Origin: Lacrimispora sp. BS-2
Lineage (GTDB): Bacteria; Bacillota; Clostridia; Lachnospirales; Lachnospiraceae
Assembly: GCF_040207125.1 (NCBI RefSeq)
Contig: NZ_CP157940.1
Span: 496,001 to 560,000, forward strand
Direction of reading: 5' to 3'
DNA length: 64,000 bases
Part shown: positions 56,043 to 60,638 of the stretch, in pieces
How the letters are laid out: each line of letters starts with the position of its first letter
Position numbering within the stretch: position 1 is the first letter of the stretch
Notes under the pieces: model-generated
What the model saw: the letters and a program-made list of their open reading frames with translations, nothing else
Databases searched by the model: none
Told to the model about the DNA's origin: nothing
Made by a program: the position numbers and the translations under genes

Positions 56043-57137
56043 ATGGATTGTTATACGAAGCAATGGTGTCCCGGTAATATGACCGGCACCGGCTCGACCG
56101 GCTGGGAATATGCCATGGGGCTTGATATGTCTGTAAGCCCTGGTACGGTAATCCGCCCTGACATGCCGCTTGGCTCAGGCCCTGCAAAATCCGCGGAACC
56201 CGGGGCAGAACCCATACTTATGAAGCAGCAGGATATGGCTGCAGGTCCCTGCCCGTGGATGCCGCCAAAAAGACCAAGGTGTTCAGATACAAGAGGTGAA
56301 TCTGAAACCAAGGCAACACCCATGCCCATGAATTGCCAGCCAGTGCTATTATGTCCGATGCCGGAAAAAAGCGGTGAGATGCCAGCCCGCACGATGCCGG
56401 AAAGATGCATGCCGGAAAAAAGCAAGGTGATGCCAGTTTGCCCGATGCCGGAAAAATGCAGAGAGATGCCAGCCCGTACGATGCCGGAGAAATGCATGCC
56501 GGAGAAATGCAGAGAGATGCCAACCTGTACGATGCCGGAAAGATGCATGCCGGAGAAATGCAGAGAGATGCCAGCCCGTACGATGCCGGAGAAATGTATG
56601 CCGGAGAAATGCAGAGAGATGCCAACCTGTATGATGCCGGAAAGATGCATGCCGGAGAAATGCAGAGAGATGCCAGCCTGCCCGATGCCGGAAAAATGCA
56701 TGCCGGAGAAATGCAGAGAGATGCCAACCTGTATAATGCCGGAAAGATGCATGCCGGAGAAATGCAGAGAGATGCCAGCCCGCACGATGCCAGAAAAATG
56801 CATGCCGGAAAAATGCAGAGAGATGCCGGCCTGCCCAATGCCGGAGAAATGCAGGGGAAAAGTAAAAGAAGCAATGCCCATGAGATGTCCGAATATGGCA
56901 ACAAGCCCCGCTTTTATAAAGTGTCCGGAAATGCCCACATACACTGCTCCGGCCAAATGTCCCGGCATGCCGGCTCCAGCTCCTTGTCCAGCCGAAAATA
57001 TCGACCAGTTTCCAGTTGGAATGGCATATGTACCATGGCAGTGCTGGCAGCAGGTGTATCCGATGGATACGGCCTTGAGCGTGGGAACCATCTTCCCGGA
57101 TCTGAATAAACCATTTATTATGGGGGGGTGCCAGTGA
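56043..57137 (+). CDS. cotJA: CotJA spore coat protein with a large Cys/Met repeat expansion
   Basis: 364 residues, ATG 56043 with AAAGGAG 12 bases upstream. The last ~55 residues match CotJA (GMAYVPWQCWQQVYPMDTAL, SVGTIFPDLNKPF), a small coat component normally of 60-90 residues. The N-terminal part is unusual: residues ~106-270 are tandem 17-residue units such as MPEKCREMPARTMPEKC, alternating with MPEKCREMPTCTMPERC, rich in Met, Pro, Lys and Cys. These Cys could cross-link the coat. The stop overlaps the next start. First gene of the cotJABC operon. Confidence 0.85.
   Translation: MDCYTKQWCPGNMTGTGSTGWEYAMGLDMSVSPGTVIRPDMPLGSGPAKSAEPGAEPILMKQQDMAAGPCPWMPPKRPRCSDTRGESETKATPMPMNCQPVLLCPMPEKSGEMPARTMPERCMPEKSKVMPVCPMPEKCREMPARTMPEKCMPEKCREMPTCTMPERCMPEKCREMPARTMPEKCMPEKCREMPTCMMPERCMPEKCREMPACPMPEKCMPEKCREMPTCIMPERCMPEKCREMPARTMPEKCMPEKCREMPACPMPEKCRGKVKEAMPMRCPNMATSPAFIKCPEMPTYTAPAKCPGMPAPAPCPAENIDQFPVGMAYVPWQCWQQVYPMDTALSVGTIFPDLNKPFIMGGCQ
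56358..56853 (+). repeat. 51-bp tandem repeat array inside cotJA
   Basis: About ten units of 51 bases (17 codons), each coding MPEKCREMP-x-x-x-MPE[KR]C, with a higher-order alternation of two unit types (ART and TCx centres), giving a 102-base super-period. The unit length is a multiple of three and lacks stops in other frames, so several long frames, also antisense, are open by composition alone. Confidence 0.9.
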
Positions 57138-57403
57138 TGATGGGTTATAATGTTGATTGCGATATGCTGTTAAGGCAGGTATATGAAGCCAGTTTTGCAA
57201 TGGATGATGTGGTTTTGTATCTTGACACCCATCCAGACGATCAGGAGGCATTAAACTATTACTTCTATGTAGCTGATCTGCGGCAGCAGGCAATGCAGGC
57301 TTATGAAGAGCAGTGCGGCCCTCTGATGGTTGATGGAGTCATGGATGAGAATTACTGGACCTGGATCAATGATCCATGGCCATGGGAAGGAGTGTGCGGC
57401 TAA
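57137..57403 (+). CDS. cotJB: CotJB spore coat protein
   Basis: 88 residues from ATG 57137, overlapping the cotJA stop as TGATG, with GGGGGGG nine bases upstream. CotJB pattern: LLRQVYEASFAMDDVVLYLD, THPDDQEALNYYFYV, and the C-terminal NYWTWINDPWPWEG. It is a small coat protein assembled with CotJC. Its stop overlaps the cotJC start (TAATG). Complete. Confidence 0.92.
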   Translation: MMGYNVDCDMLLRQVYEASFAMDDVVLYLDTHPDDQEALNYYFYVADLRQQAMQAYEEQCGPLMVDGVMDENYWTWINDPWPWEGVCG

Positions 57404-57516
57404 TGTGGAGGTATGAAAAGAGATTACAGTATCCGGTAAATATTACTACTCCCAATCCCAAGATTGCCAGTTTTATTATGAGCCAGTATGGAGGACCATA
57501 CTGCAGTGCCGTATAA
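57403..57516 (+). pseudogene. cotJC: cotJC, N-terminal fragment (interrupted by an insertion)
   Basis: ATG 57403 after AAGGAG, overlapping the cotJB stop. The 32 residues MWRYEKRLQYPVNITTPNP... to QYGGP match the CotJC N-terminus (manganese-catalase-like coat protein), then at GGAGGACC the frame runs into foreign sequence and stops at 57514. The rest of the gene is at 60125-60638. Joining the two at the GGAGGACC repeat gives one open frame of 202 residues (Bacillus CotJC is about 190), so this is a split gene, possibly restored by excision during sporulation, not simple decay. Confidence 0.9.
57484..57503. other. Left attachment site of the cotJC element
   Basis: CAGTATGGAGGACCATACTG is a 20-bp near-perfect palindrome (8-bp arms around AGGA) that contains the core GGAGGACC (57490-57497). 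The core recurs at 60117-60124. Such symmetry around a short core is what large serine recombinases recognise. Confidence 0.8.
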
Positions 57517-57550
57517 TCAGGCAAACCTGCAGCATGGTCCTTTTGCATGG

Positions 57551-59008
57551 TCATAAAGAGATATAATAGAAGAATTTCAGCTTTCCTTCCCGTTTATCAT
57601 AAACAATTTTTTTTACAACACTTCTCAGGGCATTTCCTTTTATTTCGTTACTTACAGCTGGATCGGAGATGATGTCACAGGCCTTTTGGATCCGGGCTGC
57701 CAGCTGGATCTTATCAGCGGCCTTGTCACGGCCAGGGCAGCTGTTTAAATCAGTTAAACGGTTCTCAAGTTCTTCCTGTTCTTTTTCAAGGCGCGTTTTT
57801 CCGGCTTTGTATTCTTCCAGTGTATCAATTCCATTTTCATAAGCGTCTTTTATCCGCTGTTTTTTATGATCAATCCTTGAGAGCGCTGCCTGTATATTTT
57901 CCTTTTCATCAGATGTTCCGGAAACAGGCTTTCTTACATAACTGTATTTCATATCTTCGGCTGTAAGAGCATTGCGGAGAGATTCTATAATAAGGCCCTC
58001 TATTTTTTTTGCGGTAATGCTGCAGGATTCCCTATGAAATCCCTTGGCATAACGCCAGCACTGGAAATAGCTGGGATGGCGGTTCGTATCCGGGGCCTTG
58101 TTAAATACAAGGCTTGCACCACAGTACCCGCATTTTAGGAGGCCGGAGGCCCAATGTTTACAATCGGACACTTCCCGGCGTTTCCCGGGCCTGTATTCTC
58201 TTTGCAGCCGCATCTGATTGTCCTTAAAAACCGATGTCACCATTTCTCTGGTCTCGTGCTGTCCATGAAAGGAGATATCTTTCCAGGTAACGATCCCGTC
58301 ATAAAACTGGTTTTTTAAAATGCGTTCAACCGCCCTGCGGTCGAACCTGTTTCCTCTTTTGGTTAAAAACCCCAGTTCATTGGCACTCCTTGCGATGGCA
58401 GACAGATCCATGCCATTATAATAGGACTGGTGGATATATTCCACGATCTTATATTCTTCATCATAAATGAGAAAAGGCTTTCCTTCTCCCACCGCACGGT
58501 ATCCCAGGCAAGGGGAGGCCTGATAGCCTTCCCTTAAAGCTTTTTCCGTCATGCCTCTGGTGACTTCCCCGGATAAGTTGATGGAATAGTATTCATCAAA
58601 CCATTCGATGATACTTTCAATGAGACGGCCGAACATGCCTTCCATAATGGGCTCGGATACGCTTTTAATGGTCACGCCGCACTTTTTCCGGAGAACGCTT
58701 TTATAAAACATGCTCTCTTCCTGATTTCTTGCAAAACGGGAAAACTTCCAGAGATAGAGATACTGAAAGGGAGAGGGCTGTGATTTGGCCATGGAAATCA
58801 TTTTCTGGAATTCCTTCCGGTTGTCGGCACGGCGGCCGCTGACCCCCTTTTCTTCAATAAATATAAATTTTTCCGGGATAAAGATCCCATCTGCTTTTGC
58901 TGCCTTTTTTATTTCTCTAAGCTGTGCATGGGGAGAAAGCTCCGTCTGGTCATTGGTGCTGACGCGAATGTAAGCGGCCCCGATTTCCGGTGTTTCATTT
59001 TTTTTCAA
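57551..59008 (-). CDS. Large serine recombinase (SpoIVCA-like)
   Basis: 485 residues from TTG 59008 (minus), with AGAGGGG about 8 bases upstream; no ATG is in frame nearby. The N-terminal resolvase domain has catalytic Ser17 in YIRVSTNDQ, KFSRFARNQEE and GVSGRRADNRKEF. The recombinase domain follows (~160-260, LGYRAVGEGKPFLIYDEEY), then a zinc-ribbon with CGYCGASL, QCWRY and RESCSI, and a coiled coil (~370-430). It should cut and join the GGAGGACC sites. Its 3' end lies 54 bases from the left site. SpoIVCA-type enzymes act alone for integration and need a partner for excision. Confidence 0.93.
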   Translation of the reverse strand: MKKNETPEIGAAYIRVSTNDQTELSPHAQLREIKKAAKADGIFIPEKFIFIEEKGVSGRRADNRKEFQKMISMAKSQPSPFQYLYLWKFSRFARNQEESMFYKSVLRKKCGVTIKSVSEPIMEGMFGRLIESIIEWFDEYYSINLSGEVTRGMTEKALREGYQASPCLGYRAVGEGKPFLIYDEEYKIVEYIHQSYYNGMDLSAIARSANELGFLTKRGNRFDRRAVERILKNQFYDGIVTWKDISFHGQHETREMVTSVFKDNQMRLQREYRPGKRREVSDCKHWASGLLKCGYCGASLVFNKAPDTNRHPSYFQCWRYAKGFHRESCSITAKKIEGLIIESLRNALTAEDMKYSYVRKPVSGTSDEKENIQAALSRIDHKKQRIKDAYENGIDTLEEYKAGKTRLEKEQEELENRLTDLNSCPGRDKAADKIQLAARIQKACDIISDPAVSNEIKGNALRSVVKKIVYDKREGKLKFFYYISL

Positions 59009-59029
59009 AATCCATCCCCTCTTTCCGGC

Positions 59030-59078
59030 TGTACTTGGAAAACATCAGGAAACAAGTACAATCCGTGTCACATACATT
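59030..59078. promoter_or_regulatory. Inverted repeat and candidate sporulation promoter between recombinase and small gene
   Basis: TGTACTTG (59030-59037) and CAAGTACA (59053-59060) form an 8-bp inverted repeat in the divergent promoter region. On the plus strand, CATACATT (59071-59078) resembles a sigma-E-type -10 (CATACAnT), 22 bases before the start at 59101. Confidence 0.5.
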
Positions 59079-59100
59079 TTACCAGGGAGGAGATGGAAAT

Positions 59101-59259
59101 ATGAACAAAAAACCAATGATTGAAAATTACGTGGAAATTGACGGCAAAAATGTTCTTATGGATTCTCTGCCAGAGGAAAAGCGTAAGGAAATTGCATTGA
59201 TGATCCAGGATAAGATGATGGAATCCATGGGATTTAGAAGAATAACCTCTTCAGGCTGA
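59101..59259 (+). CDS. Small protein in the element, candidate recombination directionality factor
   Basis: 52 residues, ATG 59101 after GGGAGGAGATGGAAAT. MNKKPMIENYVEIDGKNVLM, then SLPEEKRKEIALMIQDKMME and a basic GFRR tail. It is helical and soluble. Its size and position divergent from the serine recombinase are what is expected of a directionality factor, as CD1234 is for the C. difficile sigK element. Similar small 'LPEEKRKEIA' proteins are known near Clostridia recombinases, but this role is inferred, not shown. Confidence 0.6.
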   Translation: MNKKPMIENYVEIDGKNVLMDSLPEEKRKEIALMIQDKMMESMGFRRITSSG

Positions 59260-59355
59260 TAACGGAGGGAGAGGACAGGCCAAATATGGAGGGAGCCGGC
59301 TAGATGGGGGAACAACCTGGCCGGAACCTGGGACCGGCCAGGATACAAATCAAGA

Positions 59356-60015
59356 TCAGGCATTTGGATTGCAGTCCTGAAAAGGAAAGAAAAATTCCGG
59401 GATTCCCCTTACATAGGGAGCGATATCGTACTGCTGATAGTAGATGACAATTCCCGATGGTTTGGTAAAAAATCCATTGATGTTAAAATTACCCCGCAGG
59501 AGCGCTGCATAGTCATCAAAATATTGGGAAGGGGTTGTTTTCATCTCTTCTTCTATCTGCTGCTGGATTCCTTTGAAAATGTAATCCGTAAATTGAGGAT
59601 TGCCAGGGAAGAAATCAATGAGCCCCAGCTGTTTTCCGGTGCAAAAGTCCCATGTTTGGGAGTCCCGGGTTGTAGTTCCATGGGCGCCTCCAAGATAAGA
59701 GTACTGATCGGTAAAGAGGCTGGTGGTGCAGTCGTTATTGTATGTGATCCGATAGACTGATAAAAATTCATGGCTGTTAAAGGGAAACTGATTTTTTTGT
59801 ACGAACATTGCTTTATCAACGGCCTGTGGGTAAAGCACGGTGCGGCAGTAGTTCTCAGCCTGTCTGGACCGGAATTCATAAAACTCATTGATGCTCTGGG
59901 CAGAGGTGGAGCTGCATGTTGTGGTGAAATGGGGATAATGGATTGTATAGGTAAAAACGGTGATCCCGTTGTAGCGCATAATATCTGTCAGCGTTTTTTT
60001 AGAGATTGTCTGCAT
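59356..60015 (-). CDS. DUF4163/DUF3298-like protein, element cargo
   Basis: 219 residues, ATG at 60015 (minus). N-terminal region ~10-95 fits DUF4163 (ITVFTYTIHYPHF; NEFYEFRSRQAENYC). From ~100 a DUF3298-like part has YSYLGGAHGTTTRDSQTWDF, LIDFFPGNPQFTDYI and IVIYYQQYDIAPYVRGIPEF, as in the extracellular parts of RsiV and PdaC. Unlike those it has no signal peptide or TM, so it would act in the cytoplasm. Its presence as cargo of a coat-gene element is unexplained; a lysozyme-binding or coat role is possible. Confidence 0.72.
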   Translation of the reverse strand: MQTISKKTLTDIMRYNGITVFTYTIHYPHFTTTCSSTSAQSINEFYEFRSRQAENYCRTVLYPQAVDKAMFVQKNQFPFNSHEFLSVYRITYNNDCTTSLFTDQYSYLGGAHGTTTRDSQTWDFCTGKQLGLIDFFPGNPQFTDYIFKGIQQQIEEEMKTTPSQYFDDYAALLRGNFNINGFFTKPSGIVIYYQQYDIAPYVRGIPEFFFPFQDCNPNA

Positions 60016-60116
60016 GGGAGCCTCATAAAAGGAAGGTTTCTATAATATATGGGTAAATGGGTTTAATTATGAGCTTAAGGAAAGGTATGGAATCTGGTTA
60101 TCTGTTTCTGACTTAA

Positions 60117-60124
60117 GGAGGACC
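60117..60124. other. Right attachment core of the cotJC element
   Basis: GGAGGACC, identical to 57490-57497. The sequence beyond it (TGATGGAGAAATGGG) is cotJC coding sequence; the sequence before it (CTGACTTAA) is element DNA. Confidence 0.8.
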
Positions 60125-60638
60125 TGATGGAGAAATGGGCGCCTCCATGCGTTATCTTTCCCAACGCTATGCCATGCCTTATAAGGAATGTAAAGGACTT
60201 TTGACGGATATTGGAACGGAAGAATTAGCTCACTTAGAAATCGTAGCGACCATTGTTCACCAGCTGACAAGAAACTTAACGCCGGAGCAGGTGGTGGAAT
60301 CAGGCTTTGGCCCTTACTACATTGACCACACCACAGGAATTTGGCCGCAGTCTGCAGGCGGGGTCCCCTTTAATGCCAACCAATTCCAGTCAAAGGGAGA
60401 TCCCATCACTGACCTTGTAGAGGATATGGCGGCAGAGCAGAAGGCAAGGAGTACTTACGACAACATTCTTCGTGTTGTAACAGATCCTGAAGTATGTGAT
60501 CCGATTCGTTTTTTGAGAGAACGGGAAATCGTTCATTTCCAGAGATTTGGGGAAGCTTTAAGAATCACCCAGGATAATTTGGACAGCAGGAATTTCTACG
60601 CATTCAATCCAAGCTTTGATATTAGAAATCCGTGCTGA
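60125..60638 (+). pseudogene. cotJC: cotJC, C-terminal fragment
   Basis: 170 residues in the frame of the N-terminal half. They contain the manganese-catalase ferritin-like fold: GTEELAHLEIVATIV (ligand ExxHxE), EDMAAEQKARSTYDN, and FLREREIVHFQRF. CotJC is a catalase-like coat protein. ATG 60135 could start a short product, but it has no ribosome site of its own beyond weak GGAG. Together with the N-terminal fragment this makes a full-length protein after excision of the element. A strong terminator follows. Confidence 0.88.

Follow-up and report, generated by a model that had tools for sequence, protein, structure and literature searches.

Intervening elements in sporulation genes

The closest described counterpart of the locus reported here is skinCd, the element that splits sigK of Clostridioides difficile. 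It encodes a large serine recombinase, and its excision requires a small directionality factor expressed under sigma-E and SpoIIID (PMC5025042). We describe a comparable arrangement in a 64,000-nucleotide stretch of Lacrimispora sp. BS-2 (contig NZ_CP157940.1, positions 496,001 to 560,000; hereafter the window), in which the spore coat gene cotJC is interrupted by an interval of about 2.6 kb. The interval contains only three annotated open reading frames (ORFs), which encode a large serine recombinase, a 52-residue protein and an RsiV-like protein, and none of the three is a phage structural gene. With a probability of roughly 0.8, we regard this interval as a very small sporulation gene-intervening (skin-like) element free of phage genes, which would be excised in the mother cell with the help of the 52-residue protein. 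Like skinCd, it splits a sporulation gene and has a large serine recombinase of its own, and a small gene, here a candidate for the directionality factor, lies behind what appears to be a mother-cell type promoter. Unlike skinCd, it resides in cotJC instead of sigK and has only three genes. The skinCd factor, CD1234, is 72 residues long (PMC5025042) versus 52 for the product of the small ORF; the two are set side by side by putative role and not by homology.

Other intervening elements share some of these features. The gin element in gerE of Bacillus cereus is also of non-phage type and combines a serine recombinase and an extra factor with a 9-bp shared core, but it comprises 31 genes with three recombinases and is found in some strains only (PMC5595907), whereas the three-gene cotJC element tracks host divergence across the genus. 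In Bacillus subtilis, the serine recombinase SprA (YokA) excises SPbeta and rebuilds the spore-envelope gene spsM (PMC4191935); SPbeta, however, is a full prophage, and the match between its recombinase and that of the window is weak (E ~0.0005). The yin element of Clostridium botulinum likewise intervenes in a clostridial sporulation gene and has a small putative directionality factor, but the gene is yabG, and the element is termed unique to one strain (PMC10747680). Prophage phi027 of C. difficile, located by cotG, has its right end just upstream of a CotJC-like gene, which it is described as adjoining, not splitting (PMC11222575, PMC12122855). Our literature search found intervening elements reported for sigK, spsM, spoVFB, gerE and yabG and none for cotJC, the location of phi027 by a CotJC-like gene being the closest approach; subscription papers and preprints were mostly outside this search, so its result is not proof of absence. 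Judging from the sequences, cotJC appears to be a new target gene for skin-like elements, and the element in the window appears to be an unusually small representative of a widespread cotJC-directed family.

The split cotJC gene in the window and across the genus

The cotJC gene is interrupted at the octamer GGAGGACC, a second copy of which follows at a spacing of 2,627 bp. An earlier note on this DNA, made from the sequence without database searches, had placed the two copies correctly to the base. It had also claimed that joining the halves restores CotJC in frame, and this holds: the left part through the repeat and the right part after it form a stop-free frame of 202 residues, which includes QYGGPDGEMGASMRYLSQR and has its Mn_catalase (PF05067) match in the right half. 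The predicted tryptic peptide across the joined junction is IASFIMSQYGGPDGEMGASMR. There is no extended identity between the two sites outside the octamer, and the G+C content of the element is equal to that of the window (44.3% vs 44.8%). The chance of an exact 8-base match at one prescribed register is ~1.7e-5, and GGAGGACC occurs three times on the plus strand and once on the minus strand of the window. A stronger argument against chance than these octamer statistics is the recurrence of the split at the same codon in related genomes.

The genus set consisted of 25 genomes of the Lacrimispora group, which were searched with the joined CotJC protein and the loci of which were then compared. 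In 15 of them, both halves of cotJC are seen and the gene is split at codons 30–31 by the same cassette. The recombinase (as an intact ORF) and the 52-residue ORF are present in all 15 elements and the RsiV-like gene in 14, the element of G006 being the one that lacks it. Two more genomes (G001 and G016) contain the element and the right half of cotJC on broken contigs. Five genomes (G002, G005, G010, G019 and G020) are uninterrupted at codon ~31, with G005 being split at residue 65 instead. In four of these five, the recombinase gave no match at 1e-40, and the fifth has only a 45% homologue elsewhere. In G002 and G010, cotJC is whole and remnants of the element stand behind it, namely the 52-residue ORF and the RsiV-like gene with no recombinase. 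Of the three genomes left, G007 could not be assigned to either class, and the main cotJC was not found by this search in G014 and G017.

Comparison of the 15 split loci changes the description of the junction. The 8-base cores at the two ends match each other exactly in six genomes and differ in nine, mostly at third-codon positions, and the left core of G012 has CT in place of CC. The only core common to all 15 is GGNGGNC, which corresponds to Gly-Gly-Pro codons with free third positions. Thus, the identical octamer that the earlier note had proposed as the junction is found in this genome, but a strict octamer was rejected as a general recombination site. The variation at third-codon positions indicates that the coding sequence dictates the core on each side and that the recombinase tolerates differences between the ends. 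Strand exchange by a two-base exchange at the conserved GG would fit this pattern.

Selection on the two halves of cotJC

The ratio of nonsynonymous to synonymous substitution rates (dN/dS) and the genetic distances were compared between 12 of the 15 split genomes (G004, G006 and G015, which are split twice, were excluded) and four uninterrupted ones; genome pairs in this set are non-independent, and G022 and G023 are near-identical. The pooled dN/dS of the split genomes is 0.033 for codons 1–29 and 0.036 for codons 32–202, compared to 0.043 and 0.036, respectively, in the uninterrupted genomes. Synonymous sites are heavily changed (proportion of synonymous differences, pS, of ~0.6), and none of the 12 joined frames contains a stop. 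The joined CotJC product is very probably made, because purifying selection on each half is as strong as that on uninterrupted cotJC.

The same genome encodes an intact CotJC paralogue (C1:2252453-2253046, 67% identical), which is located behind a weak cotJB match. All 25 genomes of the genus have a comparable paralogue, none of which is interrupted at this codon, and at least 24 of these paralogues carry nearly the same core (G012 gave no pattern match). Such a uniformly uninterrupted paralogue is compatible with a plain insertion, in which cotJC is dead in the split species and the paralogue does the work. This explanation is very improbable and was rejected on the purifying selection in both halves, where dN/dS is near 0.035 despite the pS of ~0.6 and the joined frames are free of stops. 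Furthermore, G002 carries a second 3' part of cotJC downstream of its whole cotJC, and this spare part decays, as expected of a dispensable copy.

In another alternative, the two halves would be made as separate proteins that assemble with each other, and in the window an AAGGAGG stretch does stand ahead of the right core and the 3' part contains an in-frame ATG (codon 36 of cotJC). However, this Shine-Dalgarno-like stretch varies between genomes (GGCGG, GGGGG or GGTGG in others), on which ground separate translation of the 3' part was rejected. The four codons ahead of that ATG (32–35) read PDGE in all 12 aligned sequences, and the 5' part alone amounts to ~30 codons with an unconserved tail. 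We consider two separate proteins scarcely credible, even less so than a dead gene.

The genes of the element itself are under constraint as well, with pN/pS values (the ratio of nonsynonymous to synonymous differences) of 0.26 for the recombinase, 0.31 for the RsiV-like gene and 0.48 for the 52-residue ORF, with 0.24 for cotJB for comparison. The distances between the recombinases correlate with those of the cotJC 3' part (Mantel r of 0.94) and of cotJB (0.88, n = 12), the cotJ genes being linked to the element and not equivalent to an independent host tree. Divergence of the element genes therefore parallels that of the host locus, as expected from inheritance of the element together with the locus.

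The recombinase, the candidate directionality factor and the cargo gene

The recombinase of the window combines a resolvase, a recombinase and a zinc-ribbon domain in a single chain, i.e. it is a large serine recombinase. The earlier note had called it a SpoIVCA-like serine recombinase. Its only near-full-length relative in the Protein Data Bank is the SPbeta enzyme YokA/SprA, which it matches weakly (E 0.0005), so the designation ‘SpoIVCA-like’ is only loosely right.

The 52-residue protein is a candidate for the directionality factor. Structure prediction gave a small model of high confidence (mean predicted local distance difference test score, pLDDT, of 89). The alignment of the elements reveals a block, ACARGTACAA ... 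CATACA(A/T)T, 5' of this ORF in 15 of 15 cases. The pattern ACARGTACAAN{4,12}CATACA has a single occurrence in the 4.49-Mb genome of Lacrimispora sp. BS-2, and the reversed control has none. Among 37 copies of the small ORF in genome and viral contigs, a set in which one genome contributes three and some genomes counted above recur, 27 have the full motif, two only a −10 and eight neither; the block is also retained in phage-sized relatives. Its −10 is of the sigma-E/K type by the description available for C. difficile (PMC3789822, PMC5025042), and the block as a whole looks like a promoter of mother-cell type.

The RsiV-like gene has a conserved CATATA(A/T)TATA block of its own in most aligned copies. 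In four genomes in which the small cotJC element is absent or of a different kind (G005, L281 4099-4758; G006, L283; G019; and G020), an RsiV-like gene that is 81–84% identical stands apart from cotJC, and its neighbours in G005 and G006 are ordinary chromosomal genes. As it stands away from cotJC in four genomes, the gene seems to be useful by itself, and our guess is that its product has a role in the mother cell.

Proposed excision in the mother cell

The earlier note's interpretation of the interruption as a skin-like element is backed by the presence of its own recombinase, by its recurrence in the genus, by selection on both halves of the gene and by the apparent mother-cell type of the promoter block. 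In the mechanism that we propose, cotJC would remain split during growth and in the germ line. In the mother cell, one of its sigma factors, probably together with SpoIIID, would turn on the 52-residue gene, the product of which would act as the directionality factor and let the serine recombinase recombine the two GGNGGNC cores. A circle of ~2.6 kb would be released, and cotJC would become joined in frame before or during transcription of the cotJ operon. The surviving line would keep the element because the mother cell dies. We infer both the confinement of excision to the mother cell and this order of events.

Some assemblies contain hints of excision. The locus of G018 is a tandem array in which the left junction occurs twice and the right junction once, and in a fourth junction the right end of the element runs into its left end across the core, as it would in a circle; this attP-type junction hints that circles form. 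The draft assembly of G001 includes a 3,417-bp contig with both ends at cores. In the draft assembly of G007, one contig passes from the 5' part of cotJC directly into the 3' part and a second contig starts at the core. That contigs of these two draft assemblies break at the cores suggests that ordinary cultures contain a mixture of states. Such breaks would fit an excision that is real and non-developmental, taking place at a low constant rate or upon prophage-like induction and leaving enough cells with a joined cotJC. The recombinase family is also present in prophages and viral contigs, and excised forms of yin of C. botulinum were found at all time points (PMC10747680). Nevertheless, we hold non-developmental excision to be unlikely: the promoter block of the 52-residue gene is of apparent mother-cell type and conserved outside the genus, and cotJC itself is a sporulation gene, the C. 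difficile homologues of which, cotCB and cotD, are under sigma-K (PMC3789822).

Several points weigh against excision in the mother cell as outlined above. All traces of excision come from assemblies and none from DNA of a known sporulation stage. The G018 array could be an assembly artefact. In the joined contig of G007, the sequence of which is poor at its end, a single additional C disrupts the frame, and no recombinase was found in this genome. No family of Pfam, NCBIfam or PHROG matches the 52-residue protein (the RsiV-like protein has no PHROG match either), and its model agreed with no known directionality factor, the structure search giving no hit at E <= 0.001. The agreement of GGAAACAAG with the C. 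difficile SpoIIID motif KRTAACARK extends to eight of nine positions in a comparison by eye (PMC3789822, PMC5025042). The −35 region of the block is devoid of the ATA of sigma-E promoters, a point against a confident choice of the mother-cell sigma factor that would read the block. Finally, with an uninterrupted paralogue in all 25 genomes, coat assembly may not strictly depend on excision.

If the proposed mechanism is true, many clostridia of gut and soil rebuild an enzyme-like coat protein by a programmed DNA rearrangement. The persistence of such insertions would also become understandable, as an element that is excised only in a dying cell has a low cost and is not lost. Consisting of a recombinase, one small gene and one cargo gene, the element is small enough to be transferred whole to Escherichia coli, which would provide a minimal test of the control that directionality factors and sporulation timing exert on a serine recombinase. 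For annotation, the consequence is that cotJC in these genomes is recorded as broken or missing despite selection on both of its halves.

Related recombinases and other insertion sites in cotJC

A contig scan with 14 recombinases gave at least 528 relatives, the best 80 of which represent 79 loci. Within this best-80 set, a piece of cotJC is found within 1.5 kb of the recombinase in 60 of the 79 loci, further off in four and is absent from the flank in 15. A mechanical rule assigns the break to the same codon in 52 of these 60 loci (28 5' pieces end at 30–36 and 24 3' pieces start at 18–31); of the other eight, some also represent this site, with an alignment that runs past it, and some do not. 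Relatives at E <= 1e-60 are present in 36 of 250 genomes. Among the best 80 of 154 relatives in IMG/VR, 14 are accompanied by a cotJC piece and 12 by the small ORF, and a phage collection contained two records with relatives at 1e-30, both of less than 35% identity.

The size of the interval varies greatly. The element of G173 is 3 kb long. In G057, the cotJC halves are 36 kb apart and enclose a prophage with tape-measure, virion and endolysin genes. In G070, they are 87 kb apart, with a match to a second, tyrosine-type integrase near the right end, and this interval possibly holds more than one element. We infer that the element in the window descends from a prophage.

Codon 31 is not the only position at which cotJC is split. 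In G004, G005, G006 and G015, the gene is interrupted in frame at residue 65 by an element with a different, 530-residue recombinase. This element (L038 1787-8369 in G005 and L039 1628-8274 in G006) encodes an S8 protease (subtilase) in both genomes and a sigma-70-type factor in G005. In L114 (G053) and L115 (G225), a recombinase of a third kind interrupts the gene in frame at residue 178. The cotJC matches end at residue 136 in L131, L133, L134, L146, L164 and L177, which is probably a fourth insertion site; a distant recombinase match is found in L134 and L117. In some genomes, cotJC is in three pieces, being split at 31 and 65 in G004, G006, G015 and L132 (Clostridium sp. MCC353) and at 31 and 178 in L180; L182 and L134 are probably also of this kind. 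In three-piece genes, two excisions that are independent of each other would come together in a single transcript.

We lean towards a wider interpretation of these data, in which phages wired into sporulation, and the remnants of such phages, have long used cotJC as a landing site in Lachnospiraceae-type bacteria. Unrelated serine recombinases would each have taken a conserved codon of their own (~31, 65, 178 and probably 136), and some species would need two recombinases in the mother cell to assemble a three-piece gene. The 2.6-kb element would then be a phage stripped to its excision module, i.e. the recombinase and a directionality factor under mother-cell control, plus one spore gene useful to the host.

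The split sigK gene and the neighbourhood of the element

The sigK gene of the same genome is also split, with halves at 1272237-1272515 and 1278117-1278476 and another serine recombinase between them. The sigK interval (L098, C1:1271000-1279500) encodes the small and large subunits of a NiFe hydrogenase, a HycI-type maturation protease and a cytochrome-b5-like protein. No shared repeat of at least 9 bases was found between chosen stretches at the sigK halves, and the sigK junction is putative. The possibility that the cotJC element is the sigK skin was rejected, as both the locus and the recombinase are different.

The features of the cotJ region are collected in Table 1.

Table 1. Features of the cotJ operon and of the cotJC element, in window coordinates (aa, amino acids).
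Feature	Position	Strand	Description
cotJA-type gene	56043..57137	+	364 aa; PF11007 3.6e-18, residues 324-358; first gene of cotJ operon
cotJB	57128..57403	+	PF12652 3.5e-30
cotJC 5' part	57403..57497	+	Codons 1-31 plus two bases, ends in left core; N-half kept in 15 genomes
Left attachment core GGAGGACC (attL side)	57490..57497	+	
Large serine recombinase	57551..59008	-	485 aa, TTG start; PF00239 3.9e-23, PF07508 9e-11, PF13408 3.6e-9; PHROG 95 integrase 9.5e-84
Promoter-like block ACAAGTACAATCCGTGTCACATACA	59052..59076	+	SpoIIID-like box, then sigma-E/K-type -10 CATACATT; alignment of 15 elements
52-aa ORF, candidate recombination directionality factor	59101..59259	+	In 15/15 elements and in phage-sized relatives
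PdaC/DUF3298 (RsiV-like) protein	59356..60015	-	219 aa; PF13739 1.4e-15, PF11738 1.9e-11; 14/15 elements
CATATATTATA block 5' of RsiV-like gene	60041..60051	-	Sigma-E/K-type -10; alignment
Right attachment core GGAGGACC (attR side)	60117..60124	+	
cotJC 3' part	60117..60638	+	Starts with right core, runs to stop; Mn_catalase PF05067 2.8e-36

In the CotJA-type protein, the C-terminal CotJA domain is preceded by a long array of MPEKCREMP-like repeats.

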